Of a stretch of DNA of 64,000 nucleotides, positions 31,870-61,053 are shown piece after piece. The translations under genes and the position numbers were made by a program. Position 1 is the first letter of the stretch, and every line of letters starts with the position of its first letter. The notes below the pieces were generated by a model. The model was not told where the DNA came from. It worked only from the letters and a program-made list of their open reading frames with translations, and did no database searches. Origin of the DNA: Muriicola marianensis (GTDB lineage: Bacteria > Bacteroidota > Bacteroidia > Flavobacteriales > Flavobacteriaceae); assembly GCF_014638095.1 (NCBI RefSeq), contig NZ_BMFH01000002.1, forward strand, positions 186,001 to 250,000, read 5' to 3'.

Positions 31870-33342
31870 ATGAAAACGAGATATATAAAAGTAGGACTTA
31901 TAATGCTGGCTTCAGGATTGCTTGCTCTTTCCTGTGGGGACGACTTTGTCGACGTGCCATCTTTTGATGAGGACTCTGAGAACTTTTTCAATTCCGAATC
32001 TGACTATCAGGAAGCCCTTATTGCGGCCTATGATATGTTGCAGTCGACCTACCTCAACGTGATGGTAGGAGAGATCGCGAGCAACAACACCCTGGCCGGG
32101 GGAGAAAGCGCTACGGACGTGCCCGGCATACAGGAAATAGACGACATGACCCATACCCCTGTAAACCAGCAACTCAGGGATATCTGGAGCTGGATGTTTG
32201 CCGGAGTGAACCGCGCGAACTACATCCTGGAATTCCAGGACAAGACGGATTTCCCTGGTAAGGACGTGGTCCTTGCTGAAACGAGGTTCCTGAGGGCCTA
32301 TTACTATTTTGAACTGGTTAAATGGTTTGGCCCCCTGCCTTTTAACGTGCAGGAACCGGACAGAAGGATCCTTTTCGGGGACCAGGACGTACTGGAGCGC
32401 CAGCCGGAGGAAGTCATCTACGGCCTGATTGAATCAGACCTGATCTTTGCAGCAGCCAATTTACCGGCTGTACAGGCAGAGACCGGAAGGGCTACCAAAG
32501 GTGCTGCTCAGGCGCTGTTGGGCAAGGCATATCTCTATCAGGAAAAGTTCACCGATGCCGCAGCTATTTTGGATGAAGTGATCAATACCGGCCCTTATGA
32601 CCTGCTGCCGGACTACAGCACGATGTTCGAAAACTTCAACGAAAACAATATAGAATCTGTGTTTGAAGTGCAATACACTGATGTGGAAGGAGCTGGATTT
32701 GGATGTTTACAGTGTAGCGAAGGAAACGTTGCCGTTGGGTTTAACGGAATACGAAATTACACAGGTCCTGTCTTCGAATCGGGCTTCAGTTTCAACGTAC
32801 CGACTCAGGAGGTCTATGATGCCTTTACTGCAAACGATGCACGGCGAGATGTGGCCATCCTTGATATTGAGGCATGGGCTGCGGCCAACCCCGAGGTTTC
32901 CTACGTGGAGGGATTTGAACATACCGGATTCTACAACCGAAAGTACATTGCTCGCCAGGGCGATCTCAACACACCTGATGCCAACCTGACCAACCCTAAT
33001 AACTACAGGGCCATACGCTTTGCCGATGTCTTGCTGATGGCAGCCGAAGCCCATAACAGGACCGGCAATGATACCCAGGCTCAGCAATACCTGAACCGGG
33101 TCCGAAACAGAGCCGGTCTGGGAGATATCAATGATACTGGCACAACCCTGAGAAATGCGATCTACGACGAAAGACGACTCGAACTCGTGGGGGAAGGCCA
33201 CCATTTCTTTGACCTGGTTCGTACCGGAAGGGCCGCACAGGCGATCAACGGCTTTACAGTTGGGAAACACGAATTGTTTCCCATCCCATCTATAGAAATT
33301 GAATTGGCAGGAAACCGCTGGAATCAGAATCCCGGCTATTAA
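31870..33342 (+). CDS. susD: SusD-like glycan-binding lipoprotein
   Basis: The 490-residue lipoprotein has the lipobox LALSC (Cys22) followed by Gly-Asp-Asp, a pattern linked to surface display in flavobacteria. The body shows RagB/SusD features: N-terminal SusD-like helices with RFLRAYYYFELVKWFGPLP, TPR-type repeats, and a C-terminal end with RDVAIL, R..DVLLMAAEA, YLN.VR.RAGL, ERR.EL..EG..FFDLVR and LFPIP. It lies 9 bases after susC, as expected for a SusCD pair. SusD caps the SusC barrel and binds the imported glycan. Confidence 0.95.
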   Translation: MKTRYIKVGLIMLASGLLALSCGDDFVDVPSFDEDSENFFNSESDYQEALIAAYDMLQSTYLNVMVGEIASNNTLAGGESATDVPGIQEIDDMTHTPVNQQLRDIWSWMFAGVNRANYILEFQDKTDFPGKDVVLAETRFLRAYYYFELVKWFGPLPFNVQEPDRRILFGDQDVLERQPEEVIYGLIESDLIFAAANLPAVQAETGRATKGAAQALLGKAYLYQEKFTDAAAILDEVINTGPYDLLPDYSTMFENFNENNIESVFEVQYTDVEGAGFGCLQCSEGNVAVGFNGIRNYTGPVFESGFSFNVPTQEVYDAFTANDARRDVAILDIEAWAAANPEVSYVEGFEHTGFYNRKYIARQGDLNTPDANLTNPNNYRAIRFADVLLMAAEAHNRTGNDTQAQQYLNRVRNRAGLGDINDTGTTLRNAIYDERRLELVGEGHHFFDLVRTGRAAQAINGFTVGKHELFPIPSIEIELAGNRWNQNPGY

Positions 33343-37008: not shown

Positions 37009-37032
37009 GAATAACAAACACATCTAGTGATT

Positions 37033-38661
37033 ATGAAGACTTTGCAAATGATTATGCGTTATTTCCTACTGCTCGCGTTTCTGGTGGGTTGCCAGGAGGA
37101 CATACCCAGCCTGAGTGCCGTGGTTGTGCCTTCAAACTTAACCATTACCACAAACGTGGCCAGTGACCAGTCCGGGAACGTAACGGTAACAGCTACGGCC
37201 GATGATGCCCTGAATATCCATGTGATCTTCAAGCAAAATGCAGCGCCCGTGGTAGTGAGCCCCGGTGAGCCGGCCAGCTTCAGGTACACGCAGTCCGGAC
37301 AGTATTCCCAGCTTATTACCGTAGTTGCCTTCGGAGCCGGGGGTACGGCCAGCTCTAGGAGTATTACCATAGATTTGGATGTCAAACTCCTGATCGATCA
37401 GGACATCCTTCAGAAGATTGCCGGTGACGGAACAAAAAGGTGGGTCTGGAACAAGGAGGAAACAGGACACTGGGGTGCAGATGCCGCCTTTAACGAAACG
37501 AATAACGGCTTTCAGGCGCCTCCCAATAGTATCAATCCCTGTGCCTATGACGACGTACTCACTTTCTCCTATGACGCCAATGACAATTACGGCTATCAGC
37601 TGGAGACGGGAGCAGGTGATGAGACGCTGGTGGGTTGGGCCGATGTGAATGTATTCTTCCCTAATGCCACGCCTTCCCAATTTGTCGATGAATGCCGGGA
37701 TATCACCTCACCCAACAGTACAGCGGTTAAGACTCTGGATACGGATACCAGCTTTTTGATCTACGAGGAGGACGGGGACCTGTACCTGGAAGTTGAGAAC
37801 AGCACCCTTTCCTTTTGGTCGGGAGCTACGCGATATAAAATCCTTGAATTGACAGAGGATTTCCTCTTTGTCAGAGGGGATCACCTGCCATTGCTGGAAA
37901 CAATAGAGATTGCCTATTATCACCAGTTCAGGCCGGAGGATTACGATCCCAATGCCAGTGGGACCCAATTCGAGACCCTGGTTTGGGCCGATGAGTTCGA
38001 CGTGGACGGGGCGCCTGATCCCACCAACTGGACCTATGACTTAGGGACCGGAAATAACGGGTGGGGTAATGGAGAGTTGCAATCCTACACCAGTGATCCG
38101 GAAAACGTAGTTGTGGAGAACGGTGTTCTCAAGATCACGGCCAGGGACGACGGGGCCGGGGGATATACCTCTGCCCGCGTGAAAACGGAAAACCTGAGGG
38201 AGTTCACCTACGGCCGTGTTGAGGTAAGGGCGAAATTGCCGTCTGCCACAGGTACCTGGCCAGCCATTTGGGCACTAGGTGCCAATTTTGAGACCGTAGG
38301 ATGGCCAACTTGCGGCGAAATAGATATTATGGAACAGACTGGTGCAGAAAAGAATACGGTACTGAGCACCGTTCACTTTCCCGGTAATTCCGGAGGAGGT
38401 GGGATCACAGATTCAACCCCCCTTCCCACTTCAACCACGGAATTCCATGTTTATACGGTGGAATGGACGGCCGATGAGCTGAAATTCTGGATCGATGAAG
38501 AACCTGTTCATCACACGGTCACCAACGACCCCTCAAGACCTTTCAATGACGATTTCTTCTTTATCATGAATGTCGCTATGGGGGGAACCCTGGGCGGGAC
38601 CGTAGATCCGTCATTCACCGCTGATACCATGGAGATAGATTATATCCGTGTATATCAATAA
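37033..38661 (+). CDS. GH16 endo-beta-1,3-glucanase (laminarinase) lipoprotein with N-terminal accessory domains
   Basis: GH16 laminarinases cut internal beta-1,3-glucosidic bonds by a retaining mechanism. The ATG at 37033 gives a lipoprotein signal with Cys20 followed by Gln-Glu-Asp; an upstream GTG is less likely. Of 542 residues, ~25-115 form a PKD/Ig-like domain and ~120-300 a separate domain opening KRWVWNKEETGHWG, often found in flavobacterial GH16 lipoproteins but not assigned here. The last ~230 are the GH16 jelly roll with EIDIME (Glu429 nucleophile, Glu434 acid/base) and the upstream W.A.WALG. It probably sits on the cell surface as the initial depolymerase. Confidence 0.92.
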   Translation: MKTLQMIMRYFLLLAFLVGCQEDIPSLSAVVVPSNLTITTNVASDQSGNVTVTATADDALNIHVIFKQNAAPVVVSPGEPASFRYTQSGQYSQLITVVAFGAGGTASSRSITIDLDVKLLIDQDILQKIAGDGTKRWVWNKEETGHWGADAAFNETNNGFQAPPNSINPCAYDDVLTFSYDANDNYGYQLETGAGDETLVGWADVNVFFPNATPSQFVDECRDITSPNSTAVKTLDTDTSFLIYEEDGDLYLEVENSTLSFWSGATRYKILELTEDFLFVRGDHLPLLETIEIAYYHQFRPEDYDPNASGTQFETLVWADEFDVDGAPDPTNWTYDLGTGNNGWGNGELQSYTSDPENVVVENGVLKITARDDGAGGYTSARVKTENLREFTYGRVEVRAKLPSATGTWPAIWALGANFETVGWPTCGEIDIMEQTGAEKNTVLSTVHFPGNSGGGGITDSTPLPTSTTEFHVYTVEWTADELKFWIDEEPVHHTVTNDPSRPFNDDFFFIMNVAMGGTLGGTVDPSFTADTMEIDYIRVYQ

Positions 38662-38687
38662 TGAGTGTTGAGTAAAGCGGAAAGCTT

Positions 38688-38722
38688 AGAAAAGGGTTGG
38701 CTTACCGAGTTAACCCTTTTCT
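38688..38722 (+). promoter_or_regulatory. Strong hairpin between the GH16 gene and the TIM-barrel/beta-barrel gene
   Basis: Perfect 11-bp arms (agaaaagggtt / aacccttttct) around a 13-base loop are not followed by a T run. It may be a partial terminator, an RNase processing site or a 3'-end stabiliser that lowers expression of the downstream part of the operon. Confidence 0.55.
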
Positions 38723-38799
38723 GGGCTAAAAGCAAGAGCTATAAACGATCAATGAATTATCTGAGTAGGAAGATATTCTACCAAAAACTAAACACCACT

Positions 38800-43445: not shown

Positions 43446-44348
43446 ATGAATAGCAATAAACAGTTTAATATGAAAAAGAATTCAGGATTAAAAGAAACCC
43501 TGACCTTGAGAAAAGAGACTTTCCCTGCTCTCTCCAGCGGCTTCCTGCTTATCGCTCTCTTCCTGCTCAATACGGGCTGCGCAGTGGACGATACCCAGAC
43601 AGTGGTGAATTTCACCACCCTGACCATGCAGGATGAATTCGATACAGACGGTGCTCCGGACTCTTCCATTTGGGGATACGATATTGGTACTGGTATGAAC
43701 GGCTGGGGAAACCAGGAACTGCAGTACTATACAGATCGCCCTGAGAACGTAACTGTCAATAACGGAGTGTTGATCATCACGGCGAGGAAAGAGGACTTCC
43801 AGGGCTCCGGCTATACCTCTGCAAGGCTTATTACACAAGGTAAATTCTCACAGACCTACGGCCGGTTCGAAGCCCGGATCCGCGTGCCTTACGGCCAGGG
43901 AATGTGGCCAGCCTTCTGGATGCTTGGTGTTCCGGACAGCCCGGGTGAGATCTGGCCCAGTTTAGGAGAGATCGATATCATGGAGATGCGTGGGCAAAAT
44001 CCAACCACCCTGATCGGCAGTGTACACGGACCGGGATATTCTGCCGGGAATGCAATCTCAAAAGAGTATGTCTTTCAAAACGACCGAATGGATACAGGTT
44101 TCCACGTCTATGGGATAGAATGGGGACCAGACTACGTAAATCATTACGTGGATGACGTATTGTACAACCAGATCACCCCTGAAGACCTTCCTGAAGGTTC
44201 CGAATGGGTGTTCGACAACGATTTCTATATCCTGATCAACCTGGCAGTAGGAGGGAATTTTGTGGGTTCTCCGAATTCGGAAACCGTCTTTCCTCAGTCC
44301 ATGCTGGTCGACTATGTGAGAGTATATGAATATAACGGACTAAACTAA
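43446..44348 (+). CDS. GH16 endo-beta-1,3-glucanase (laminarinase) lipoprotein, compact form
   Basis: This is a single-domain GH16 enzyme of 300 residues. A long N-terminus leads to a hydrophobic segment and lipobox (LNTGC, Cys45) followed by Ala-Val-Asp-Asp. The catalytic stretch GEIDIMEMRG has Glu175 (nucleophile) and Glu180 (acid/base), and W.AFWMLG lies upstream. The start might instead be the ATG nine codons in, which would shorten the odd n-region. It differs from the first GH16 in lacking all accessory domains and may act on shorter or different laminarin chains. Confidence 0.92.
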   Translation: MNSNKQFNMKKNSGLKETLTLRKETFPALSSGFLLIALFLLNTGCAVDDTQTVVNFTTLTMQDEFDTDGAPDSSIWGYDIGTGMNGWGNQELQYYTDRPENVTVNNGVLIITARKEDFQGSGYTSARLITQGKFSQTYGRFEARIRVPYGQGMWPAFWMLGVPDSPGEIWPSLGEIDIMEMRGQNPTTLIGSVHGPGYSAGNAISKEYVFQNDRMDTGFHVYGIEWGPDYVNHYVDDVLYNQITPEDLPEGSEWVFDNDFYILINLAVGGNFVGSPNSETVFPQSMLVDYVRVYEYNGLN

Positions 44349-47900: not shown

Positions 47901-49694
47901 ATGAAAAGGGATACTCAAGGAACTACTGAACAACGCCTTGAACATAAGGTTGATTCCCTCCTGGTCAAAATGACCCTGGACGAAAAGATCGGGCAGATGA
48001 CCCAGGTACGTCATTTTGATGACATATCAGAAGAGGATATCGCCACCAAATTCATTGGTTCGGTTATCCATACACAAGGTCCCCTGCCGGGAGCAAACGC
48101 GAAAGAATGGCAGGAGAAATTCACCCGCCTGCAAAAGAAAGCCCTGTCAACCAGGCTTGGTATCCCTCTGTTATTCGGGGTGGATGCTGTGCACGGGCAG
48201 AATACCTATGAAGGAGCCGTTATCTTTCCACATAACATCGGTCTCGGTGCCAGCAGGAATGCTGAACTCGTCCGAAAAGCAGCTGAAATTACGAGAATTG
48301 AAGCCAGGGCTACCGGTTTTAACTGGGTGTTCTCGCCCTGTATCGCCATCCCTTATAACGAGAAATGGGGGAGAGTATACGAAGCGTTCTCTGAAAGTAC
48401 GGAACTCACAGAAGAATTTGCCAGAGCCTCCGTTAAAGGGCATCAGGGTACTGAACTGAGTGCCCAATCCGTCATGGCCACGGCCAAACACTTTATTGGT
48501 GACGGGGCTACGGATAATGGGGTAGAAGGAGGGGACTGCTCCCTGACTCCCGAGGAAGTCAGAGAAAGGCTATTACCTCCGTACAGGGCAGCTGTGGAAG
48601 AAGGTATAGGCTCAGTAATGGCCTCCTTCAACAGCATGTCGGGTCAGTTTATGCACGCTCATAATTACTGGATCTCGGACGTCCTCAAAGGAGAGCTTGG
48701 ATTCAAGGGGATCATGGTGTCCGACTGGAAGGCGTACTCCCGCTTTGGCGGGAATGAGATCATCAATGCCGGGATCGATGTGGTCATGGCGGTAGACGGA
48801 GATCTTCAGATGTTTCATGAAGGACTCAAAGCCGGAGTTGAGAACGGGGAAGTATCCATGGACCGCATAGACGATGCCGTAAGGCGCGTTCTCACTCAGA
48901 AATTCAGGCTCGGGGTGTTCGATAATCCTTTCCCGGATCCTTCCCTCATTCCTCAGATCGGGTTACAAGCTCACAGGGATGTCGCGAGACAGGCCGTCAG
49001 GGAATCCCTGGTCTTATTGAAAAACGATGGAAACATACTCCCCCTGAATAAAAAGACTTCAAAGATCGTGGTGGTTGGCGAACACGCAGATAATACCGGT
49101 CTCCAATCGGGCGGCTGGTCCATCAACTGGCAGGGCTCTACTGAAACGTATGCGGGTTCCACGACCATACTTCAGGGGATCGAGAAGATAGCGAAAGGAA
49201 AGGTGGTCTATGATGCCGATGCTACGGGGAATCATAAAGATGCCGATGTGGCTGTGATCGTGGTAGGTGAAACCCCCTATGCCGAATTATTTGGCGATAT
49301 TGGCGGCGAGATAGATGCCTATCAGCTGACCCTTACCGAGGAGCATCAGAATTACATCAACACCTATGTGAACCTGGGGGTAAAGGTGGTCACCCTGTTT
49401 ATCTCGGGGCGCCCTTTGGTGACGACTGATCAAATAAACAAATCGGATGCCTTTGTGGCTGCCTGGTTGCCGGGGTCTGAGGGGGATGGAATTGCTGAGG
49501 TCCTTTTCGGGGAATTCGACTTTAGAGGTACGTTGCCACATGCATGGCCCGCCTCTGAGGGAGATTATCAAGGAAAATACGGACCCAATTTCTGGGATGA
49601 CTCTGTGGAACCCTTATTTCCCTTTGGATTTGGGTTGAATTACAGGGATGAGACGTCAGAAAATGACACCACAACGGGAAAACGAAGACAATGA
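47901..49694 (+). CDS. GH3 beta-glucosidase, no signal peptide in the annotated frame
   Basis: GH3 enzymes release glucose from the non-reducing ends of beta-glucans. The 597-residue protein covers both GH3 domains: KHFIGDG, GFKGIMVSDW with nucleophile Asp275, and a C-terminal domain ending FPFGFGLNY. The overall sequence resembles exo-1,3/1,4-glucanases of the ExoP/barley ExoI type. The N-terminus (MKRDTQGTTEQRLEHKVDS) has no signal. A short frame at 47858-47929, offset from this one, encodes a signal-like MLNLLILCLSKAC, and removing one A from the A run at 47897-47901 would join them. Location is thus uncertain. It overlaps the next gene by ATGA. Confidence 0.92.
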   Translation: MKRDTQGTTEQRLEHKVDSLLVKMTLDEKIGQMTQVRHFDDISEEDIATKFIGSVIHTQGPLPGANAKEWQEKFTRLQKKALSTRLGIPLLFGVDAVHGQNTYEGAVIFPHNIGLGASRNAELVRKAAEITRIEARATGFNWVFSPCIAIPYNEKWGRVYEAFSESTELTEEFARASVKGHQGTELSAQSVMATAKHFIGDGATDNGVEGGDCSLTPEEVRERLLPPYRAAVEEGIGSVMASFNSMSGQFMHAHNYWISDVLKGELGFKGIMVSDWKAYSRFGGNEIINAGIDVVMAVDGDLQMFHEGLKAGVENGEVSMDRIDDAVRRVLTQKFRLGVFDNPFPDPSLIPQIGLQAHRDVARQAVRESLVLLKNDGNILPLNKKTSKIVVVGEHADNTGLQSGGWSINWQGSTETYAGSTTILQGIEKIAKGKVVYDADATGNHKDADVAVIVVGETPYAELFGDIGGEIDAYQLTLTEEHQNYINTYVNLGVKVVTLFISGRPLVTTDQINKSDAFVAAWLPGSEGDGIAEVLFGEFDFRGTLPHAWPASEGDYQGKYGPNFWDDSVEPLFPFGFGLNYRDETSENDTTTGKRRQ

Positions 49695-50968
49695 AAAGTT
49701 CAATCAAATTATTAATCGCTGTTTGTGCACTGATCTCAGGCATGGCCTGTAAAGAAACCCGTGAAAAAACAGAGGATAAACAACCGCAAATATCAAATGA
49801 TATGAATGCAAAGGACATTCTTGGAAACCCTGAGTATCTGGCTATTTCCTATGGGGGTTATCGGACAAAGACGAGGGATAACCAACCCTCTCTTGATGAA
49901 CTCAAAGACGATATGAGGATCCTGCATGCCATGGGGATCCGAATCGTTCGCACTTATAATGTTCACCTGGCCCAGGCTTCCAATCTTCTGAAGGCCATCA
50001 GGGAATTGAAAGAAAATGATCCGTCTTTTGAAATGTACGTCATGCTCGGGGCCTGGATCGACTGTAAGAATGCTTGGACCGGTAAAACGCCTGACCACAA
50101 TGTAGAGAGTGAACGGAATAAAAAGGAGATCGCAACAGCCGTGGAGCTGGCAAATCAATATCCGGATATTGTCAAGGTGCTCGCCGTTGGAAATGAAGCC
50201 ATGGTGAGATGGGCTGCCAGCTATTACGTGCAGCCTTCTGTGATCCTGAAGTGGGTAAACCACTTGCAGGAACTCAAGAAATCCGGGAAACTCCCGAAAG
50301 ATCTCTGGATCACCAGCTCTGATGATTTTGCATCCTGGGGAGGGGGAGATGAAAGTTATCACACAGAAGACCTGGCGAAGCTTATAAAAGCTGTGGACTA
50401 TATTTCCATGCACACCTACCCTTATCACAATTCGCATTACAACCCTGAATTCTGGAAGGTGCCGGAGGATGAGACTGAATTATCAGACATGGAGAAAATA
50501 GATGCGGCCATGGTCAGAGCCCTGGAATTTGCACAGCAACAATACGCGGCCGTCACGGCCCATATGCAAAGCCTGGGCGTGGATAAGCCCGTCCACATAG
50601 GAGAAACCGGGTGGGCGACCATTTCGGACGGACTTTACGGGCCGGAGGGATCTAAAGCCACCGATGAATATAAGGAAGCCCGGTATTACCATCTTATGCG
50701 GGAGTGGACCAATGCAGAAGGCATTTCCTGTTTCTACTTCGAAGCCTTCGACGAACCCTGGAAAGATGCAGGTAATCCTATGGGGTCAGAGAATCATTTC
50801 GGCTTATTTACAGTGGATGGAAAGGCCAAGTACGCCTTATGGGATCTGGTAGACAAAGGTGTATTCAATGGGCTTTTACGCAATGGGAATACCATCACAA
50901 AAACATTTGACGGAAATAGGGATGCTGTGATGGAAGAAGTACTGGCACCTCCCCTGGCGGGAGAGTAA
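49691..50968 (+). CDS. GH17 beta-1,3-glucanase lipoprotein
   Basis: GH17 enzymes hydrolyse, or transglycosylate on, beta-1,3-glucans with retention. The 425-residue lipoprotein (SGMAC, Cys20, followed by Lys-Glu) has the acid/base Glu169 in AVGNEAMVRW and nucleophile Glu305 in HIGETGW. The barrel runs over residues ~45-400. It should act in the periplasm or on the cell surface. Marine flavobacterial GH17 enzymes with this layout are known laminarin-active partners of GH30. Its ATG overlaps the GH3 stop. Confidence 0.93.
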   Translation: MKSSIKLLIAVCALISGMACKETREKTEDKQPQISNDMNAKDILGNPEYLAISYGGYRTKTRDNQPSLDELKDDMRILHAMGIRIVRTYNVHLAQASNLLKAIRELKENDPSFEMYVMLGAWIDCKNAWTGKTPDHNVESERNKKEIATAVELANQYPDIVKVLAVGNEAMVRWAASYYVQPSVILKWVNHLQELKKSGKLPKDLWITSSDDFASWGGGDESYHTEDLAKLIKAVDYISMHTYPYHNSHYNPEFWKVPEDETELSDMEKIDAAMVRALEFAQQQYAAVTAHMQSLGVDKPVHIGETGWATISDGLYGPEGSKATDEYKEARYYHLMREWTNAEGISCFYFEAFDEPWKDAGNPMGSENHFGLFTVDGKAKYALWDLVDKGVFNGLLRNGNTITKTFDGNRDAVMEEVLAPPLAGE

Positions 50969-51026
50969 ATGGTCGCTAAAAGGTCTTGTGGCTTTAATGC
51001 GACTCGTCAATCGAAATACTGAAACG

Positions 51027-52523
51027 ATGAAAAAGTTTAACCCAATTAATTATCTCTTGATTATTAGTTTGATTGTAAATGGTTGTTCGGTAGAGCAGAA
51101 ATTGGAGGTGGAAGTTTTTGAGACGTCTGCCGATGGTAATAAAATGACCCCGGTTACGGAATTCAGGGTTTTACAGGATATACCTGTGATTAAAATCATG
51201 CCTGAGAATGAGTATCAGGTAATTACCGGATTTGGCGGATCGTTCACGGAAGCTTCGGCATCCCTGCTCAATGCCCTGGGACCGGAAAACAGGCGTAAGG
51301 TTATTGAGGCCTATTTTGGTGATGACGGGGCTAAATACTCCCTTACAAGGACGCATATGAATTCATGCGATTTCTCCCTGACCAATTATTCTTATGCACC
51401 CGTGGAAGGAGATAGTGACCTTCTTTATTTCAGCATAGAGGAGGATCAGGATGACATTATCCCTTTCATCAAGGAAGCCATGGAGGCCTCTTCAGAAGGG
51501 TTTAAGATCGTGGCTTCTCCCTGGACAGCCCCCCCATGGATGAAAGACAACAAAGACTGGCGCGGGGGTAAATTACTTCCCGAATACAGGGAATCCTGGG
51601 CACTTTTCTTTTCCAAATACCTGGAGGCATACCAGGCGGAAGGTATCGATATCTGGGGGTTTACCGTAGAGAACGAACCCCTGGGAAATGATTACAACTG
51701 GGAGAGCATGCACTTCACGCCAAAAGAGATGACAGATTTTGTGACCGAGTACCTCGGTCCCCGTCTGGAACAAGACGGGCATGATGTCAAGATCCTGGGA
51801 TACGATCAGAATCGTGAACACCTCGAGGAATGGGTGGATGAGATGTTCAGGGATGAAGCGGCCCGGAAGTATTTCGATGGTACAGCGATACACTGGTATG
51901 CCAGCACCTTTGAAGTCTTTCCGGATGCCCTTCAATACGCGCATAATAAGGCGCCGGAGAAATATCTCATCCAGACAGAGGCCTGTGTGGATGCAGAGGT
52001 CCCCAAATGGCAGGACGACAAATGGTACTGGTCTAAGAGGGCGACAGACTGGGGTTGGGACTGGGCCCCGGAAAAGGACAAACACCTCCATCCCAAATAT
52101 GCCCCCGTCTACCGTTATGCCCGTGATATCATCGGTTGTCTCAATAACTGGGTCGACGGATGGATCGACTGGAATATGGTCCTCGATAAAAGGGGTGGTC
52201 CTAACTGGTTCAAAAACTGGTGCGTGGCTCCTGTGATCGTAGATCCCGAGAAGGATGAGGTATATTTTACCCCTCTCTACTACACCATGAAGCATTTTAG
52301 CAGGTTCATTCGTCCCGGGGCAGTGCGCATTGGCTTCGAAAATCCCGACAAAACTCTACAGATCACTGCTGCGAAGAATCCTGACGGGTCGATCGTGGTA
52401 GTCGCGTTCAACCAGGATCACAAAGGGAAGTCATTCGATCTTATCCTTGGAGAACGTTCTCAGAAGTTGTCTATAAGTCCACAGGCGATCCAGACGATTG
52501 TTATCAAACATTCAACTAACTAA
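51027..52523 (+). CDS. GH30 lipoprotein, probable beta-1,6-glucosidase trimming laminarin branches
   Basis: The ATG at 51027 gives a lipoprotein signal with NGC (Cys20); the frame upstream is open but lacks sense. The 498-residue protein has the GH30 features GFGGSFTEASA, SPWTAPPWMK, acid/base Glu217 in TVENEPLG, nucleophile Glu318 in LIQTEAC, and the C-terminal beta-sandwich domain. In characterised marine laminarin loci, GH30 enzymes remove single beta-1,6-linked glucose side groups, which lets GH17 and GH16 work on the backbone. The same role is inferred here from family and neighbours. Confidence 0.92.
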   Translation: MKKFNPINYLLIISLIVNGCSVEQKLEVEVFETSADGNKMTPVTEFRVLQDIPVIKIMPENEYQVITGFGGSFTEASASLLNALGPENRRKVIEAYFGDDGAKYSLTRTHMNSCDFSLTNYSYAPVEGDSDLLYFSIEEDQDDIIPFIKEAMEASSEGFKIVASPWTAPPWMKDNKDWRGGKLLPEYRESWALFFSKYLEAYQAEGIDIWGFTVENEPLGNDYNWESMHFTPKEMTDFVTEYLGPRLEQDGHDVKILGYDQNREHLEEWVDEMFRDEAARKYFDGTAIHWYASTFEVFPDALQYAHNKAPEKYLIQTEACVDAEVPKWQDDKWYWSKRATDWGWDWAPEKDKHLHPKYAPVYRYARDIIGCLNNWVDGWIDWNMVLDKRGGPNWFKNWCVAPVIVDPEKDEVYFTPLYYTMKHFSRFIRPGAVRIGFENPDKTLQITAAKNPDGSIVVVAFNQDHKGKSFDLILGERSQKLSISPQAIQTIVIKHSTN

Positions 52524-52536
52524 ACAACCTATCTAT

Positions 52537-54888
52537 ATGAGCAGTTCAACACAAACGATTACAACCAAAGTGCCGTTCGGGCAAAAAGTTGCCTTTGGGA
52601 TCGGCATGTTTGCCAATCAGATGTTTCCGGCCATTCTGGGTATTTTTATGGTGGTTCTTGTAGAGGACCTGGGATTTCCCGGTTGGATGTGGTCACTCAT
52701 CTATTTCTTTCCCAGGATTTTCGATTCTATCACAGACCCCATCATGGGCTTTATCTCGGATAATACCAAATCCAAATGGGGAAGGAGAAAACAGTATGTG
52801 CTCATAGGTGGCCTTATCATGGGGGTGGCCTTCATATTTATGTGGCAGCTCTATGCATCCGACACATTACAATATAATTTCTGGTATTTCTTTCTGTGGT
52901 CTATCGTATTCTATTTAGGGCTGACTTTTTTTAGCGTTCCCTACGTGGCCATGGGGTATGAGATGAGTGACGATTTTCACGAACGCACCGATATTATGGC
53001 CGTTGCTCAGTGGATCGGACAATGGGCGTGGGTGATTGCTCCCTGGTTCTGGGTGATCATGTACGATCCGGACTGGTTTCCCTCAGCTGATGTTGCCGTG
53101 AGAGAATTGGCCATCTGGGTTGCCATTCCCTGTGCCATTTGCGCCATGGTTCCTGCCATTTTTATCAGAAGCAAATCGACCCTTGACGAAGATTATGAAC
53201 CTCTGAATGCTGCCAACATCGTCAATAGCCTGAAGAAGATCCTCGATAGCTTTAAAGCAGCTTTCAGAATAGAACAGTTCAGGAGAATATGTATGGCCAC
53301 CTTCCTGATCTTTAACGCATTTAACACGGTTGCTGCCCTTACATTTTTTGTCGTTGTCTATAAATTATTTAACGGGGATGCTGATGCTTCCGGGATCTGG
53401 GTATCCTTATTTGGATGTCTGGGAGCATTGGGTACCACCTTTATCGTGATTCCCATAGTGGCCCGTATGGCAAGGGTTATGGGTAAGAAAAAGGCGTTTA
53501 TGCTCGCCCAGGGTATTTCAGTTGTTGGTTACATCATGTTGTACTTTCTTTTTGTACCAGGAAAACCCTGGCTGTATATTATTGGTCTTCCCTTCTTCTC
53601 ATTCGGGATAGGCAGTTTATTTACCATCATGATGTCTATGACCGCAGATGTCATAGATATTGATGAGCTGAATTCCGGGAAACGCAGAGAAGGTATTTTC
53701 GGGGCTATTTACTGGTGGATGGTCAAAGTTGGTTTTGCCATTGCCGGGGCGCTGAGCGGACTTATTATTGCCTTTGTAGGCTTCAATCCGGACCTCCCTA
53801 CCACAGAGCAGCAATCTGCTGTAGACGGCTTGCTGGCATTCTTTTGCTTCTTCCCCATGGTGGGTACCATAATCGCGATGCTTGTCATGAGGAAGTACGA
53901 CGTGACCGAGGCGCGGGCCAATGAGATCAGGGCGGAAATAGAGAAGCGTAAAAAACCCAAAAGCTCTTCTTCTTACTACGGTGGGAACAAGCTCTCCACT
54001 TTTGATACTCTAGGTCTGGAAATAGACCCGAGTACCGATTTGGATTTTACGAATATGTCTGATACCAGCGTGAGAAAGCAATTCCTGATCTCTCTCGAAA
54101 AAGGGATTCACGGCATGTGCTTCAGTCCGTATCGCGAAGGACAGGATATCGGGGATATACTTTCCGAAGAACAGATCCGAATCCGTATGGAGGTCGTGAA
54201 ACCCTATACAAAATGGGTGCGCTCCTTTTCCTGTACGGATGGAAACGAATATATCGCGAGAATTGCCAAGGAAAACGGACTCAGGACCATCGTCGGAGCG
54301 TGGATTGGTGAGGATATAGAGAAGAACGAGAGAGAGATCAGCAGCCTCATTAACCTGGCAAAAGACGGCCATGTCGATATCGCTGCGGTAGGTAATGAGG
54401 TTTTGCTCAGAAATGAATTGCCAAAAGAGGAGATCCTTCAGTATATTCGCCGCGTAAAAGAGGCTTTGCCGGATATCCCTGTGGGGTACGTCGATACCTA
54501 CTTCAGGTTTTATGAGCATCCGGATCTGGTAGATGCTTGTGATGTGATTATGGCCAATTGCTATCCTTTTTGGGAAGGGTGCAGTGTAGAGGAAGCTTCG
54601 AATTACCTTAAAAAGATGCATGCCCTTGCTGTGAAGGCAGCCGATGGAAAACCTGTCATCATTACAGAGACCGGATGGCCGGATAATGGAAATAACGTGA
54701 ATGAGGCAGTGCCTACAGCACTGAATGCGATGAAGTATTATATCAATCTTCAGGCTTGGGGGGAGAAATACAATACGGAATTATTCTATTTCTCTTCTTT
54801 TGATGAAGCCTGGAAGATACATCACGAAGGAGAAATTGGTGCCAGTTGGGGCATTTGGGATAAAAATGAACATTTGAAATACAGCTAA
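52537..54888 (+). CDS. GPH-type (MFS) sugar transporter fused to a C-terminal GH17 domain
   Basis: The ATG at 52537 was chosen; the longer frame overlaps GH30. Residues 1-455 form a 12-helix GPH/MelB-XynP-like symporter, with the loop motifs SITDPIMGFISDNTKSKWGRRK and SMTADVIDIDELNSGKRREG. A charged linker (456-504, EIEKRKKPKSSSS) leads to a GH17 barrel (505-783) with acid/base Glu621 in VGNEV and nucleophile Glu711 in TETGWP. Both termini of such carriers lie in the cytoplasm, so the enzyme would sit at the exit of the channel. The GH17 part closely resembles the separate GH17 that starts 3 bases downstream. No frameshift or stop separates the two parts. Confidence 0.88.
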   Translation: MSSSTQTITTKVPFGQKVAFGIGMFANQMFPAILGIFMVVLVEDLGFPGWMWSLIYFFPRIFDSITDPIMGFISDNTKSKWGRRKQYVLIGGLIMGVAFIFMWQLYASDTLQYNFWYFFLWSIVFYLGLTFFSVPYVAMGYEMSDDFHERTDIMAVAQWIGQWAWVIAPWFWVIMYDPDWFPSADVAVRELAIWVAIPCAICAMVPAIFIRSKSTLDEDYEPLNAANIVNSLKKILDSFKAAFRIEQFRRICMATFLIFNAFNTVAALTFFVVVYKLFNGDADASGIWVSLFGCLGALGTTFIVIPIVARMARVMGKKKAFMLAQGISVVGYIMLYFLFVPGKPWLYIIGLPFFSFGIGSLFTIMMSMTADVIDIDELNSGKRREGIFGAIYWWMVKVGFAIAGALSGLIIAFVGFNPDLPTTEQQSAVDGLLAFFCFFPMVGTIIAMLVMRKYDVTEARANEIRAEIEKRKKPKSSSSYYGGNKLSTFDTLGLEIDPSTDLDFTNMSDTSVRKQFLISLEKGIHGMCFSPYREGQDIGDILSEEQIRIRMEVVKPYTKWVRSFSCTDGNEYIARIAKENGLRTIVGAWIGEDIEKNEREISSLINLAKDGHVDIAAVGNEVLLRNELPKEEILQYIRRVKEALPDIPVGYVDTYFRFYEHPDLVDACDVIMANCYPFWEGCSVEEASNYLKKMHALAVKAADGKPVIITETGWPDNGNNVNEAVPTALNAMKYYINLQAWGEKYNTELFYFSSFDEAWKIHHEGEIGASWGIWDKNEHLKYS

Positions 54889-54890
54889 AC

Positions 54891-55793
54891 ATGTCAACGA
54901 GAAACATATCATCCAGAAAAGAGAAATATCTGGCCCTTGCGGCCCTGGATTACGCAGGAAAGACGACCAATGAGCTAAAGAAACTTTGCAGGAGCGTTTT
55001 GGATGAAGGGATGCACGGTCTTTGTTTCAGCCCATATCTGGAAGGGCAGAACCCTGGAGACCAGATCTCCGAGGACCAGATTCGCCGAAGAATGGAGATC
55101 ATCAGTCCCTACACGAAATGGATCCGATCCTTCTCTTGTACGGAAGGCAATGAGGCCATTCCGAGGATCGCCCGTGAATTTGGGATCAAGACCATGGTGG
55201 GAGCCTGGTTGGGCGACGACCCTGAGATCAATGCTCAGGAGGTGGAGAACCTGATCCAATTGGCCAACGAAGGTTATGTGGATATTGCTGCAGTGGGCAA
55301 TGAGGTGATGTTGAGGGGCGACCTTACGGAAGACGAATTGCTCCAAAAACTGGACCAGGTAAAAAAGGCCATTCCTGACGGAATTCCTGTCGGTTATGTG
55401 GACGCTTATTACGAATTTGCAGAACGTCCGAGGATTACAGAGGCGTGCGATGTAGTTCTTGCCAATTGTTATCCTTTCTGGGAAGGATGTGATCTGGATT
55501 ACTCTCTGCTTTATATGAAAGATATGTACAGGCGAGCCATCAATGCTGCACAGGGCAAGAAAGTGATCATATCTGAGACCGGATGGCCCTTTCAGGGAAC
55601 GAATCTGGAAGGCGCTTATCCCTCTTATGAGAACGCCCTCAAATACTTCATGAATACCCAGAAATGGGCCGCGGAGGAGGATATCGAAATCTTCTATTTC
55701 TCTTCCTTTGACGAGTCCTGGAAGGTTGGGGCTGAAGGGGACGTAGGTGCATTCTGGGGGTTGTGGGACAAGGATGAGCAACTCAAATTTTAA
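54891..55793 (+). CDS. Cytoplasmic GH17 beta-1,3-glucanase/transglycosylase
   Basis: The 300-residue protein has no signal peptide or lipobox. It has a complete GH17 active site: Glu138 in AVGNEV and Glu229 in ISETGWP. About half or more of its positions match the GH17 domain of the preceding fusion (shared GLCFSPY, SPYTKWIRSFSCT, ANCYPFWEGC, FYFSSFDESWK), so one arose from the other by tandem duplication. It begins 2 bases after the fusion stop. It probably processes imported laminari-oligosaccharides; whether it hydrolyses or transfers is open. Confidence 0.92.
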   Translation: MSTRNISSRKEKYLALAALDYAGKTTNELKKLCRSVLDEGMHGLCFSPYLEGQNPGDQISEDQIRRRMEIISPYTKWIRSFSCTEGNEAIPRIAREFGIKTMVGAWLGDDPEINAQEVENLIQLANEGYVDIAAVGNEVMLRGDLTEDELLQKLDQVKKAIPDGIPVGYVDAYYEFAERPRITEACDVVLANCYPFWEGCDLDYSLLYMKDMYRRAINAAQGKKVIISETGWPFQGTNLEGAYPSYENALKYFMNTQKWAAEEDIEIFYFSSFDESWKVGAEGDVGAFWGLWDKDEQLKF

Positions 55794-55936: not shown

Positions 55937-57478
55937 ATGAACCAGCCAGCCACAGTTATTAAGATGAACAAGTCCTATACTATCCTCATCAGCCTTATCG
56001 TGGCCCTGGGAGGATTTTTACTTGGTTTTGACAGTGCCGTGATCTCCGGAGCCGTCAGGGGGATTACCATTTATTTTGAGATGACGGAATGGATGCTGGG
56101 CTTTTCTGTGGGATGTGTGGTATTTGGGGCCATGGCGGGAAACCTGCTGGCAGGTCCGGTTGCAGACAGGTTCGGGCGGAAGAATACCCTTATTGTTGTA
56201 GCCGCCCTGTTCACGATTTCAGCCACCTGGTCTGCCCTGGCCACGGGATATACAGAGTTCATCATTGCACGTATTATCGGAGGTGTGGGGATCGGGGGTG
56301 CCATTCTCATAGCACCTGTATATATTGCTGAGATCGCCCCTCCAAAACTCAGAGGCAGCCTGGTTTCCTTTAACCAGTTGAATATTGTAATAGGGATATC
56401 CGTAGCTTATTTCTCTAACTACTTTCTGGTCAATGTAGGGGAGGAAAGCTGGAGGTGGATGCTGGGGGTAGAGGCTATACCCGCACTGATCTATTTTATC
56501 AGTCTCTGGACGGTGCCAAAGAGTCCGAGGTGGCTTATCCAGAAGCTCAACAAGGTAGAACTGGCGCGCAAGATCCTCCAAAAGATAGGGGGAGAGGAAT
56601 ACGCCGAGGTAACCATACAGGAAATACAGAGGGGGATTGACAAAAAAGAGGAAAAGGGTAAACTCAGGGATATCCTGGACAGCAAATACACGACTATCAT
56701 GATCATTGCTCTGGGGATTGCCTTCTTCCAGCAGATCACAGGGATCAACGCTATCTTTTACTACGCCCCCACGATCTTTGAACAAGCAGGCGGAAGCACG
56801 GATTCCTCCTTCCTTCAGGCTATTGTGGTCGGGCTTACCAACCTGGTCTTCACCCTGGTGGCTATCTGGCTGATAGATCGCCTGGGACGTAAACCCCTGC
56901 TCCTGATCGGTACTACCTGTATGACGATCGCCCTGCTGATGGCCACCTTTGCCTTCAACAATGCAACCTATGATTTTAACGAGGAGACCATCGCCAAGGT
57001 CGGGGATGATGAGATAAGAGCTGCTCTTGCAGGACTTGACGGGCAGTCATTTGACGGGCAGGCCGTATTGTTTTCGGCAGTTCAGCAGGAACTCAATGAA
57101 GAACAATTCCTAAATTTCAGAAGGAATGAGATCACGAACTTCATACAGATCAACGCATCTCTGGTCCTCATAGCCATTCTGTTGTACGTGGCCTCATTTG
57201 CCATATCCCTGGGACCGGTTATGTGGACGCTGATTTCCGAGATCTTCCCAAGCAAGATCAAGGGTATCGCGATCTCTGTAGTGGGCTTTTTCAACTCCCT
57301 GGTAAGTTTCTCGGTAACCCAGGTATTTCCCTGGGAACTCTCGAATTTGGGTCCGACCGTAACCTTTGCCCTCTATGCCCTGCTCTCGTTTATCGCCATC
57401 CTGTTTGTCTATAGGTTTGTCATCGAGACCAAAGGAAGAACACTGGAGGAGGTGGAAGAATTGCTCATCCGCAAGTAA
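55937..57478 (+). CDS. MFS sugar porter
   Basis: The 513-residue inner membrane protein has 12 helices and the sugar-porter signatures: GGFLLGFDSAVISG in the first helix, DRFGRK after helix 2, R..GG.GIGGA, VPKSPRW, FYYAPTIFE and IDRLGRKPLLL. It would import glucose or a short glucoside, probably with protons. An insertion of about 60 residues, mostly charged (~345-405), lies in the loop before helix 10 and should face the periplasm. The start may be the ATG at 55964 (MNKSYTI). The phosphorylase gene follows after 101 bases. Confidence 0.9.
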   Translation: MNQPATVIKMNKSYTILISLIVALGGFLLGFDSAVISGAVRGITIYFEMTEWMLGFSVGCVVFGAMAGNLLAGPVADRFGRKNTLIVVAALFTISATWSALATGYTEFIIARIIGGVGIGGAILIAPVYIAEIAPPKLRGSLVSFNQLNIVIGISVAYFSNYFLVNVGEESWRWMLGVEAIPALIYFISLWTVPKSPRWLIQKLNKVELARKILQKIGGEEYAEVTIQEIQRGIDKKEEKGKLRDILDSKYTTIMIIALGIAFFQQITGINAIFYYAPTIFEQAGGSTDSSFLQAIVVGLTNLVFTLVAIWLIDRLGRKPLLLIGTTCMTIALLMATFAFNNATYDFNEETIAKVGDDEIRAALAGLDGQSFDGQAVLFSAVQQELNEEQFLNFRRNEITNFIQINASLVLIAILLYVASFAISLGPVMWTLISEIFPSKIKGIAISVVGFFNSLVSFSVTQVFPWELSNLGPTVTFALYALLSFIAILFVYRFVIETKGRTLEEVEELLIRK

Positions 57479-57579: not shown

Positions 57580-60500
57580 ATGAAGCAAAATATTCACGTA
57601 GGAAACAGTACGCTGAACTTTCAGGATAGAAAAGTAGAAGGAACTTTGGTCGTCATAGACGGCGAGACCTATTACAAGATCAGCAACTGCGACCAGATGC
57701 GTCCCTTCTTTATGAGTATAGTGAGCGATTCTAACCACTGGATGTTCCTATCCAGTAATGGCGGGCTTACTGCAGGCAGGAAAAATAGTGAATTTGCCTT
57801 GTTTCCTTACTATACAGATGACAAGATCACTGAATCTACTGAGATCACGGGAAGTAAGACTATTATCAGGGTTGTGACCCCTGAGGGGGATAAACTATGG
57901 GAACCCTTTTCCAGAAGATATGAAGGGATGTACAGGATTGAACGGAACCTGTTCAAAAATACCTTTGGGAACAAGGTTATTTTTGAGGAGATCAATGCAG
58001 ATCTGGGATTGGTTTTCCGCTACCATTGGAATTCGAGCAACCTCTATGGTTTTGTCAAAAAAGCCACTCTATTAAATACGGGGGGTGATAAAATACAGCT
58101 TAGCATCCTGGACGGATTACAAAATATCATTCCGTATGGGGTGAATGCCGACCTGCAGAATACGCGAAGCAATCTGGTGGATGCCTACAAGAGGAGTGAA
58201 CTCGTCCCACAGGCGGGGATAGGTATTTATGCCCTGAGTGCCATCATCGTCGACAAGGCCGAACCCAGTGAGGCACTTAAGGCAAATGTAGCCTGGTCTC
58301 TTGGGGTGTCGAATCCTACCTATCTGGTATCATCCCTGCAGGTCGACTCATTCAGGGAAGGAAAGGACCCAAGTCAGGAAGCGGATATCAAGGCAGAAAA
58401 AGGGGCGTATTTCCTTCATTTCCATACCTCCCTGGGTGCAGGGGAAGAGAAGGATTGGATGATTGTATCCAATGTCAATCAAAATGCCTCGGATGTAGCT
58501 TTGATCAAAAGGAAGCTTGAAAATCCGGAGGCACTTAAGGAAGAATTGCTTTCAGACGTGGCCTCAGGGACACAGAGGCTCAAGGTCCTCGCCGGGGCAG
58601 CCGATGCCTTTCAGTGCTCTCGGGATACCCTCCAGACCTCCAGGCATTATGCCAATGTCCTCTACAATATCATGAGAGGTGGGATTTTTGATAAAGACTA
58701 CCAGATTGAGAAAAGAGATTTTACTATATACTTAAGAAATGCGAACAAGGCTGTTCACGATCAATTCAAAGGAGATATCTCACAATTGCCGGAGGTTTTC
58801 GACCTGAAGATATTGAGGAAACTAGCCCTTGAAAAAGCACAACCCGATTTCCAGAGACTATGTCTGGAATACCTGCCACTGAAATTCAGCAGGAGGCATG
58901 GGGATCCCAGCAGACCCTGGAACCGTTTTTCTATCAACACCCAAAGTGAGGTAGATGGATCAAAGATCCTGGATTATGAAGGTAACTGGAGGGATATCTT
59001 TCAGAACTGGGAGGCCCTTGCCCATTCTTTCCCTGATTTTATAGACGGGATGATCCATAAATTCCTCAATGCCTCCACCTTTGATGGATATAACCCGTAT
59101 AGGGTGACCAAGAGCGGGTTCGACTGGGAAGTGATCGAACCTGATGATCCCTGGTCGTACATCGGCTATTGGGGAGACCATCAGATAATCTATCTCCTAA
59201 AATTCATCGAATTCATAGAGGATTATTTTCCTTCCCGATTGGCCGTGTATTGGGATAAGCCCATGTTTGTATACGCCAATGTACCATACAAGATCAAGAG
59301 TTATTACGACATTGTGGCCGATCCGAAGGACACCATCGTCTTCGATCATCAACTCCACAATGAGATAGAAGACCGCAGGAACAGGATGGGTGCAGACGGC
59401 ACATTGCTTTCCGGCCGGGACGGTAACATCGTCCGTGTAAACCTGGTCGAAAAATTGCTGGCCACGGTGCTTGCGAAGGTCTCCAATTTTATCCCGGAAG
59501 CCGGGATATGGTTGAACACCCAGCGCCCTGAATGGAATGATGCCAACAACGCCCTGGTCGGAAATGGGGTATCCATGGTGACCCTGTATTACCTGAGGAG
59601 ATTTCTGGTTAAATTCAGGGAAATCCTGGGAGTCGTGGAAAAGGACCAGGTAGAAGTATCAGAGGAACTGATCGTCTTTCTGACCAAAGTGGTGGCGACC
59701 CTGAAAAAGCACGAGACCATCTTAAAGAGGAGTTTTACTGATGCAGAACGTCTCCAGGTGATGGACGGATTAGGAATGGCCGGAAGTGATTACCGGGAAC
59801 AGATCTACAATTCAGGGTACAGCGGGAAGAAGGAGAAGGTCAGTAGAAAGGAAATACTTCATTTCACAGATTCCGTCCTGGCGTACCTTGAGCATTCCAT
59901 TGATGCCAACAAAAGGAAGGACCAGTTGTACCACTCCTATAATCTGATAAGCATTGAGGCGGGAAAAGGTGCAGCCGTTGATTACCTGAGTGTTATGCTC
60001 GAAGGCCAGGTTGCTGTCCTCAGTGCCGGATACCTGAATGCAGATGAGGTGCTTACACTCCTTGAGAATATGAGGAAGAGTGCGCTTTACAGAAAAGATC
60101 AGAACAGCTATATCCTTTATCCGAATAAGGATCTCCCGGGATTCATGGAAAAGAATGTGATCCCTGAATCTCTTGTAAAGTCTTCTGATCTTTTGAAAAA
60201 AATGCTGGATACAGGAGACAGGCAAATCCTCGAAAAAGACGTGGATGGTCAATGCCATTTTAACGGGAATTTCAATAATGCAAACGATCTGAAAAAGGCT
60301 CTCGATGACCTCAAGGGAGGCCCCTATGCTGAGCTTGTAAATTCAGAAAGACAGAAACTCCTCGATATTTTTGAGGAGGTCTTTGATCACAAATCCTTTA
60401 CGGGCAGGTCGGGCACCTTCTTCGGATACGAAGGTCTGGGATCCATCTACTGGCATATGGTCTCCAAATTGCTGCTGGCAGTGCTCGAATGCAGCAGAAG

Positions 60501-61053
60501 GGCCATGGCCGAAGGAGCACCCGATAAGGTAGTCAAAGGGCTTATGAAGCAGTACCATGAGATAAACGAGGGAATTGGGGTGCACAAATCTCCTGTATTA
60601 TACGGTGCCTTTCCAACCGATCCGTATTCCCACACTCCCGCAACTAAGGGGGCTCAACAGCCGGGAATGACCGGACAGGTAAAGGAAGATATCCTGAGCA
60701 GGCTGGCCGAAGTAGGGGTAAGCGTTCAAAACGGCAAGATCTCTTTCGGGACCGGACTCCTGGAAAAGGAAGAGATCCTTACCCAAGAGGCGACCTTTAC
60801 CTATATAAATCTCGAAGGAGAGGAAAAATCCATCACCCTCTCAGCAGGCAGCATGGGCTTCACCTATTGCCAGATCCCTGTTGTGTACACCTTTGGATCT
60901 TCTGAAGGTATACGCCTCCACAGAGAAGATGGTACTCAGGAAAATGTCTCCGGACTTACGCTGGATACGGGAATGAGTAATGAGATTTTCTTTCGAACCG
61001 GCGAAATCACTCGGATCGATGTGGCTCTCCGTTCGGACAAGGTGCCCATGTGA
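57580..61053 (+). CDS. GH149-like beta-1,3-glucan phosphorylase
   Basis: The 1157-residue protein has no signal peptide. An N-terminal beta-sandwich (residues ~10-330) carries the GH94-like stretch HWMFLSSNGGLTAGRKNSEFALFPYYTDD, and a long (alpha/alpha)6 barrel follows. Candidate catalytic acid Asp654 lies in QRPEWNDANNALVG, at the place of the GH94 acid in that clan. Length and motifs match GH149 beta-1,3-oligoglucan phosphorylases better than GH94; GH161 is the main alternative. The enzyme would use phosphate to release glucose 1-phosphate from imported oligosaccharides, saving one ATP per glucose. Its place after the sugar porter fits this. Confidence 0.85.
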   Translation: MKQNIHVGNSTLNFQDRKVEGTLVVIDGETYYKISNCDQMRPFFMSIVSDSNHWMFLSSNGGLTAGRKNSEFALFPYYTDDKITESTEITGSKTIIRVVTPEGDKLWEPFSRRYEGMYRIERNLFKNTFGNKVIFEEINADLGLVFRYHWNSSNLYGFVKKATLLNTGGDKIQLSILDGLQNIIPYGVNADLQNTRSNLVDAYKRSELVPQAGIGIYALSAIIVDKAEPSEALKANVAWSLGVSNPTYLVSSLQVDSFREGKDPSQEADIKAEKGAYFLHFHTSLGAGEEKDWMIVSNVNQNASDVALIKRKLENPEALKEELLSDVASGTQRLKVLAGAADAFQCSRDTLQTSRHYANVLYNIMRGGIFDKDYQIEKRDFTIYLRNANKAVHDQFKGDISQLPEVFDLKILRKLALEKAQPDFQRLCLEYLPLKFSRRHGDPSRPWNRFSINTQSEVDGSKILDYEGNWRDIFQNWEALAHSFPDFIDGMIHKFLNASTFDGYNPYRVTKSGFDWEVIEPDDPWSYIGYWGDHQIIYLLKFIEFIEDYFPSRLAVYWDKPMFVYANVPYKIKSYYDIVADPKDTIVFDHQLHNEIEDRRNRMGADGTLLSGRDGNIVRVNLVEKLLATVLAKVSNFIPEAGIWLNTQRPEWNDANNALVGNGVSMVTLYYLRRFLVKFREILGVVEKDQVEVSEELIVFLTKVVATLKKHETILKRSFTDAERLQVMDGLGMAGSDYREQIYNSGYSGKKEKVSRKEILHFTDSVLAYLEHSIDANKRKDQLYHSYNLISIEAGKGAAVDYLSVMLEGQVAVLSAGYLNADEVLTLLENMRKSALYRKDQNSYILYPNKDLPGFMEKNVIPESLVKSSDLLKKMLDTGDRQILEKDVDGQCHFNGNFNNANDLKKALDDLKGGPYAELVNSERQKLLDIFEEVFDHKSFTGRSGTFFGYEGLGSIYWHMVSKLLLAVLECSRRAMAEGAPDKVVKGLMKQYHEINEGIGVHKSPVLYGAFPTDPYSHTPATKGAQQPGMTGQVKEDILSRLAEVGVSVQNGKISFGTGLLEKEEILTQEATFTYINLEGEEKSITLSAGSMGFTYCQIPVVYTFGSSEGIRLHREDGTQENVSGLTLDTGMSNEIFFRTGEITRIDVALRSDKVPM

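Follow-up and report, generated by a model that had tools for sequence, protein, structure and literature searches.

Why should a bacterium join the importer of a sugar to an enzyme that cuts this sugar, and is such a join kept by selection? The question is raised by a 64,000-nucleotide stretch of the Muriicola marianensis genome (Flavobacteriaceae; assembly GCF_014638095.1, contig NZ_BMFH01000002.1, positions 186,001 to 250,000 of the forward strand; hereafter the window), in which one gene of a laminarin locus encodes a sugar carrier and a glycoside hydrolase family 17 (GH17) domain. The architecture itself is not new. It was published in 2018 for FbGH17B of Formosa, a 12-helix major facilitator superfamily (MFS) transporter with a C-terminal GH17, and BLAST searches in that study describe the fusion as common in marine Flavobacteriia (Unfried et al. 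2018, PMC6246565). A 2023 study reported it as frequent: most variant 1 laminarin loci hold at least one GH17-MFS fusion, and such loci are listed also for the Gammaproteobacteria SAR92, Luminiphilus and SAR86 (PMC10108472). The main point of the original prediction for this DNA, a carrier-GH17 fusion, is real and, because of these two reports, a rediscovery. What seems new and testable is that the tether behaves as a conserved trait while the carrier half is swapped. In the parts of the open-access literature that were searched we found neither obligate tethering nor carrier exchange, and a search there for glycosidase-transporter fusions listed no paper with this subject in its title.

The fused protein occupies a single open frame of 783 amino acids, which runs from an ATG at 52537 to a stop codon at 54886-54888 without interruption. 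Pfam assigns residues 20-458 to MFS_2 (212.8 bits, cut-off 27) and residues 707-783 to Glyco_hydro_17 (PF00332; 33.0 bits, cut-off 28.2), which places an N-terminal MFS sugar carrier and a C-terminal GH17 in one chain, as in FbGH17B; as is typical of that class, the gene sits beside a lipoprotein GH17 and a GH30 in a laminarin locus. GC content and GC content at third codon positions are alike on either side of the junction. The tethered domain has its catalytic glutamates at residues 621 (GNE) and 711 (ETGW). Two bases past the stop codon (TAA AC ATG) begins a free GH17 with glutamates 138 and 229 in GNE and ETGW motifs and with no signal peptide that could be seen by eye; it scores 48.1 bits against PF00332 and shares 53.8% of 292 aligned residues with the tethered domain. 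More distant is the lipoprotein-type GH17 at 49691 (33.5 bits against the same model), with 25.9% identity to the tethered and 32.0% to the free domain. Up to this point the original prediction holds: it had described an uninterrupted frame, intact glutamates at 621 and 711, a free enzyme with both glutamates directly behind the fusion, and a more distant lipoprotein relative.

A survey of relatives, which the prediction had proposed, recovered the same layout many times. Searches with the GH17 tail at an E value of 0.001 gave matches in 13 of 40, at least 124 of 395 and 52 of 392 genomes of three overlapping samples, including weak matches to lipoprotein-type GH17. From the stronger matches among these samples we picked 112 stretches by hand (L084-L195) and added the best 80 named loci by similarity to the fused domain (L196-L275); together with the window these make 193 loci, in which the two collections overlap and some genomes are counted twice. 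They hold 113 open reading frames (ORFs) with both carrier and GH17 matches, one per locus: the window, 39 in the first set and 73 in the second. Neither 40 of 113 loci (window and L084-L195) nor 113 of 193 is a population frequency. This recurrence rules out a sequencing artefact or chance frame. Two fused ORFs are short, one at a contig end (L239) and one away from the ends of its stretch (L220, CP070731.1), where an ORF of only 548 amino acids may reflect a shortened or frameshift-broken carrier. The pair of fused and free enzyme, likewise part of the original proposal, is a conserved arrangement: a free GH17 directly follows 106 of the 113 fusions, four leave no room to judge, and three (L159, L268, L185) are not followed by one. 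The fetched stretch includes a GH149 gene in 170 of the 193 loci; among the 113 fusion loci this applies to 103.

The GH17 domains themselves fall into two groups. Near copies were removed at 95% identity (317 to 284 domains). In the resulting 284-row tree, one branch with a Shimodaira-Hasegawa-like approximate likelihood ratio test (SH-aLRT) support of 94 places 103 of the 104 tethered domains on one side and the 180 free ones on the other; none of these stand-alone domains falls inside the tethered clade. A 73-row tree computed without the trait columns gave the same division (37 tethered domains against 35 free ones plus L185; support 97/95). The 104 tethered domains include three cut by contig ends; residue counts refer to 101 tethered and 180 free domains. 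L194_FREE1 was dropped from an earlier tree, and L085_FREE1, which lies at a contig end and was taken as free in early counts, is treated as a cut-off fusion from the 284-row analysis onwards. The only tethered domain on the free side is that of L185 (G455). Its fused ORF of 821 amino acids carries a tail of the free clade, with Tyr136 and Ser275, and its stretch contains no separate free GH17 copy; it looks like a natural domain swap.

The two types also differ in sequence at defined positions, given here in the numbering of MlGH17B, a free GH17 that is predicted to be cytoplasmic, has transglycosylase activity and is 53% identical to FbGH17B (PMC11005184). Residue 136 is mostly Leu or Met in tethered domains (65 Leu, 19 Met, nine Tyr, four Gln, three His, one Phe) and Tyr in free ones (159 Tyr, 20 Leu, one Phe); residue 274 is His in 62 and Arg in 29 of the 101 tethered domains and Gly in 165 of the 180 free ones; at residue 275, His prevails in the tethered domains (76 of 101), and free ones mostly have Ala or Asp. 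Aglycone contacts have been placed at two of these positions, 136 and 275 (PMC11005184), and position 274 would lie on the same side by its neighbourhood to 275. Both catalytic glutamates as well as N186, W191, E192 and E276 are invariant in all 101 tethered domains; free domains keep the glutamates, N186, W191 and E276 apart from single unreadable or gapped rows, and E192 is replaced by Asp in one row. Judged from tree and alignment, the tethered GH17 is an enzyme clade of its own with an altered aglycone site.

The invariant active site bears on a view in which the tail has a sensory or regulatory role towards the carrier and catalysis is secondary. LacS, also a carrier of the glycoside-pentoside-hexuronide (GPH) family, is regulated by a cytoplasmic C-terminal IIA domain, so that a precedent exists, and the flexible hinge of the fused protein described below would permit the necessary movement. 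Pfam finds no IIA domain of the phosphotransferase system in the fused protein, however, and its tail matches GH17 only; FbGH17B is moreover an active enzyme (PMC6246565). With the complete conservation of the catalytic residues as the best argument against a purely regulatory tail, we regard this role as quite improbable.

How tethered and free enzymes share the work is less clear-cut. The original prediction had spoken of a soluble version sharing or dividing the work, and the separate clades with differing residues 136, 274 and 275 speak for some division; the residues do not support a clear-cut separation of hydrolase from transglycosylase, because the window's free copy also has Leu at position 136 and nine of the 101 tethered domains keep Tyr. 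Of the residues that mark an MlGH17B-type transglycosylase, the free copy has Trp197 and Glu198, and Leu141 replaces Tyr136. The simple pairing of a fused hydrolase with a free transglycosylase is rejected for this genome on account of Leu141; if the published argument on Tyr136 holds, transfer activity may be missing from the window's free copy.

The carriers tell a different story from the tails. Removal of near copies at 95% left 167 of 192 carriers, 166 of which entered the carrier tree; on this tree the fused state requires 16 changes, compared with two on the GH17 tree. Fused proteins use carriers of two subfamilies (84 close, seven distant), as do unfused loci (18 close, 57 distant). 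A single clade of fused carriers was rejected by the approximately unbiased (AU) test in a 50-row subset (p 1.2e-5), and so was a single clade among carriers of the close subfamily only (20 fused, 9 unfused; p 6.6e-44); the groups for these tests were chosen with the fused or unfused label in view, and the carrier tree contains long branches. For a comparison of pairwise distances we kept the 101 loci in which a single unambiguous fused ORF came with both a free neighbour and a lipoprotein GH17; 81 remained after nine distant carriers and near copies were dropped. Here the two halves of the carrier agree with each other (0.73), as do the two halves of the tail (0.63), while the C-terminal half of the carrier and the adjoining N-terminal half of the tail do not (0.044). 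In the residue window 430-489 the distances still follow the carrier (0.556; tail 0.29), in the window 460-519 they follow the tail (0.628; carrier 0.073), and the switch lies between the two. Compared against the lipoprotein GH17 in each locus, agreement is moderate for the tail (0.449) and much lower for the carrier (0.176). By these distance correlations, which are not a formal recombination test, carrier and tail of the fused genes have different histories that switch at the linker, and carriers appear to have been swapped while the tail remained tethered, a pattern that suggests selection for tethering.

Two results weigh against this reading. The helix after transmembrane helix 12 (TM12), taken alone (459-475, 17 residues), tracks neither part (tail 0.15, carrier 0.056). 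Furthermore, in a comparison of unfused loci (62 loci, 48 with distant carriers; 47 used) the carrier agrees less with the lipoprotein GH17 (0.274) than the free GH17 does (0.642). Because carriers are out of step in these 47 loci too, their exchange does not seem to be special to fusions and would rather be general in such loci.

An incidental origin, in which the loss of a stop codon joined two adjacent co-expressed genes and brought equal expression without any special function, must be weighed at this point. Unfused relatives adjoin in the same order, seven of eight unfused carrier tails inspected end just past the post-TM12 helix, at the fusion point, and the structure model predicts no fixed docking, all of which speaks for such an origin. 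Such a fusion would be expected to break occasionally, yet the tethered clade holds 103 of 104 tethered and none of 180 stand-alone domains despite exchanged carriers, and its tail is found on both carrier subfamilies. Since the tether is kept through carrier exchange, which we consider the best evidence in this matter, an incidental fusion is unlikely.

Within the window's genus (nine genomes), only the window and G006 carry the fusion; in five others (G002, G003, G004, G005, G008) the free GH17 adjoins a distant carrier that shares 34-39% identity with that of the window, and no tail match was found in G001 and G007 (80% and 68% complete). Among viral contigs, 60 pattern matches yielded no relative. 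Plasmids gave ten records, all below 60% identity. In one of these, a Vibrio fortis plasmid (L276, 7911-9723), a free GH17 that is 51% identical to the tail shares a few bases with the glycosyl hydrolase gene behind it; the 16.8 kb examined include neither an annotated sugar carrier nor any other annotated laminarin gene.

On which side of the membrane does the tail act? The carrier is homologous to the melibiose permease MelB (4m64, E 3.1e-12), and Foldseek matched it to four MelB entries with template modelling scores (TMt) of 0.81-0.84, the fold of GPH symporters. The cation-site aspartate pair of MelB (D55, D59) aligns with D63 and D67, which are invariant in an alignment of 62 fused proteins (of 72 candidates, ten were left out); Protein Data Bank titles name MelB D55C as a cation-site mutant. 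Lysines and arginines number 22 in the inside loops and one in the outside loops of the 12-helix carrier, whose helix limits were placed manually on the hydropathy profile and agree broadly with the AlphaFold model. Some observations count against the overall reading: the NCBIfam GPH model TIGR00792, although the best NCBIfam match, stays below its cut-off (184.7 against 231.35 bits), MelB D19 pairs with Q28 when counted by hand on the alignment, and the FbGH17B assay, in the available part of the text, came without proof of the membrane side (PMC6246565). The latter study considers its two enzymes likely periplasmic and notes that hydrolysis and product uptake might be coupled (PMC6246565), wording which can be read as a tail that faces the periplasm and cuts oligosaccharides before their products are taken up. 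Twelve helices with this charge distribution, MelB homology and fold, and a related free GH17 without a signal peptide (by eye) speak against such an orientation, which we hold to be very improbable indeed. Because of the positive-inside charge, the homology and the fold match, the GH17 tail is most likely cytoplasmic, as originally predicted.

The junction between the two parts was modelled with AlphaFold2 on 62 sequences, a whole-chain prediction that the original proposal had called for. The model has a mean predicted local distance difference test score (pLDDT) of 86.5; TM12 is followed by a helix (458-472), a hinge (475-481, pLDDT below 50), a short helix (485-492) and then the barrel. 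Carrier and GH17 are separated by 38-49 residues (median 43) in the fused relatives with a measured spacing, 100 of 113. A direct handover of imported sugars to the tethered enzyme, as had been proposed, does not emerge from this model: owing to the flexible hinge and a predicted template modelling score (pTM) of 0.63, no fixed docking is predicted. The predicted disorder of the hinge and this pTM leave contact between carrier exit and active site without support from the whole-chain model. The modelled junction is a short tether rather than a rigid dock, and handover by proximity is plausible, if unproven.

Taken together, we consider it probable that the window protein is a member of the FbGH17B class that functions as a cation-coupled, MelB-type importer of beta-1,3-gluco-oligosaccharides with a GH17 exo-hydrolase on its cytoplasmic C-terminus, in which selection appears to preserve the tether even as the carrier half changes by exchange at the linker. 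Oligosaccharides would be produced in the periplasm by the lipoprotein GH17 and the GH30 and would enter through the carrier by cation symport. The tethered exo-GH17, some 40 residues below the carrier exit, could shorten them at once, which would keep their concentration at the inner face low and supply glucose and shorter chains to the cytosol. FbGH17B is active on debranched laminarin only and turns oligosaccharides into glucose (PMC6246565). The free GH17 might work on the bulk pool, as a transglycosylase of the MlGH17B type or as a hydrolase, and GH149 would phosphorolyse chains to glucose 1-phosphate; characterised GH149 enzymes can use chains of two or more glucose units (PMC6484121).

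A stronger version of this reading, to which we give even chances, holds that the tethered GH17 represents a distinct enzyme type with an obligate tether, which never occurs free, is specialised at its aglycone site and is bound to whichever carrier holds the locus, with carriers swapped across lineages at the linker. Selection would then act on the tethering of a cytoplasmic glycosidase at the importer exit, and the free neighbour would be its partner in a division of labour. If true, such an obligate tethered type would make channelling at a sugar importer directly testable. Laminarin is described in the literature as a large marine carbon flow, and the fusion is reported as common in its consumers (PMC6246565, PMC10108472); if the enzyme must sit at the inner mouth of the importer, transport and catalysis would be naturally coupled in one chain. 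Natural comparisons are at hand in the swapped carriers, in the seven fusions on the other carrier subfamily and in L185 with its free-type domain.

By its surroundings, the fused gene belongs to a laminarin utilization locus whose last gene encodes a GH149 phosphorylase (Table 1). FbGH30 of Formosa is a beta-1,6-glucosidase (PMC6246565).

Table 1. Features of the laminarin locus in the window and parts of the fused protein (residue equivalences refer to MlGH17B or MelB as indicated).
Feature	Positions	Strand	Basis
Regulator with Reg_prop, Y_Y_Y and LuxR-type domains	25694..28588	+	
TonB-dependent receptor plug and regulatory domains (SusC-like)	28831..31860	+	
SusD-like protein	31870..33342	+	
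GH16 enzyme	37027..38661	+	
GH16 enzyme	43446..44348	+	
GH3 enzyme	47901..49694	+	
Lipoprotein-type GH17 (FbGH17A/MlGH17A type by position), distant from the other two	49691..50968	+	Pfam
GH30 enzyme	50988..52523	+	Pfam
Fused protein, MelB/GPH-fold carrier and GH17 domain, 783 aa	52537..54888	+	ORF, Pfam, fold match, structure model
Carrier part, about residues 1-452, 12 helices, D63/D67 aligned to MelB D55/D59	52537..53892	+	Pfam, alignment, charge count, model
Junction: post-TM12 helix 458-472, hinge 475-481, short helix 485-492; distance relations switch from carrier to tail	53893..54060	+	Model, distance comparison
Tethered GH17 domain; E621, E711; L624, H762, H763 at MlGH17B Tyr136, Gly274, Ser275	54061..54885	+	
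Free GH17, 300 aa; E138, E229; L141, G280, A281 at MlGH17B positions 136, 274, 275	54891..55793	+	
Sugar porter family MFS transporter	55937..57478	+	TIGR00879, 376.2 bits (cut-off 237.8)
GH149 beta-1,3-glucan phosphorylase	57580..61053	+	NCBIfam equivalog NF058639, 1739.7 bits (cut-off 1150)

Two further proteins of this region may deserve attention. At 38665-41976, within the laminarin locus, lies a 1103-amino-acid protein whose sole match is a GH2 barrel (29.8 bits, cut-off 21). A PKD/CBM protein of 1137 amino acids at 44363-47776 contains three tandem repeat units with 300-nucleotide cores, the second and third being 92% and 87% identical to the first, at spacings of 522 and 516 nucleotides. 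In 39 of the fetched loci we also noted an extra small GH17 (308-366 amino acids from stop to stop), which is 28-33% identical to the lipoprotein GH17 and is located downstream of the free GH17 in L089, L091, L093, L155, L202 and L216, all among the 39; no signal peptide was found in eight N-termini inspected, and this enzyme is not listed in the window.

The closest known system is FbGH17B (FORMB_24740, Formosa sp. Hel1_33_131), which has the same layout and lies in a gene cluster with a GH17 laminarinase and a GH30 (PMC6246565). Position 136 is not Tyr in either protein (Met in FbGH17B, PMC11005184; Leu in the window's tethered domain); their sequences differ. The variant 1 laminarin loci of bloom bacteria share the GH17-MFS fusion, and loci with GH149, GH30 and GH17 are listed among them; that study counts loci in metagenome-assembled genomes, and a clade of tethered domains, pairing with a free enzyme and carrier exchange are not among the topics in the available part of its text (PMC10108472). 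MlGH17B, the beta-1,3-glucanosyltransglycosylase of Muricauda lutaonensis, adjoins an MFS carrier in its locus (PMC13188888) and belongs by motif and position to the same subgroup as the window's free copy, but it has the Tyr136 said to matter for transfer (PMC11005184), where the window's copy has Leu141. MelB resembles the carrier half in fold and cation-site aspartates and, unlike the fused protein, carries no enzyme domain and transports a different sugar. For the enzyme half, the best solved structure by sequence is RmBgt17A, a beta-1,3-glucanosyltransferase of Rhizomucor miehei (PDB 4WTP/4WTR; E 3.6e-33 for the fused and 2.4e-35 for the free domain), whose fold is that of the fused GH17 domain (TMt 0.87); this fungal enzyme stands alone and has Tyr102 where both window copies have Leu.

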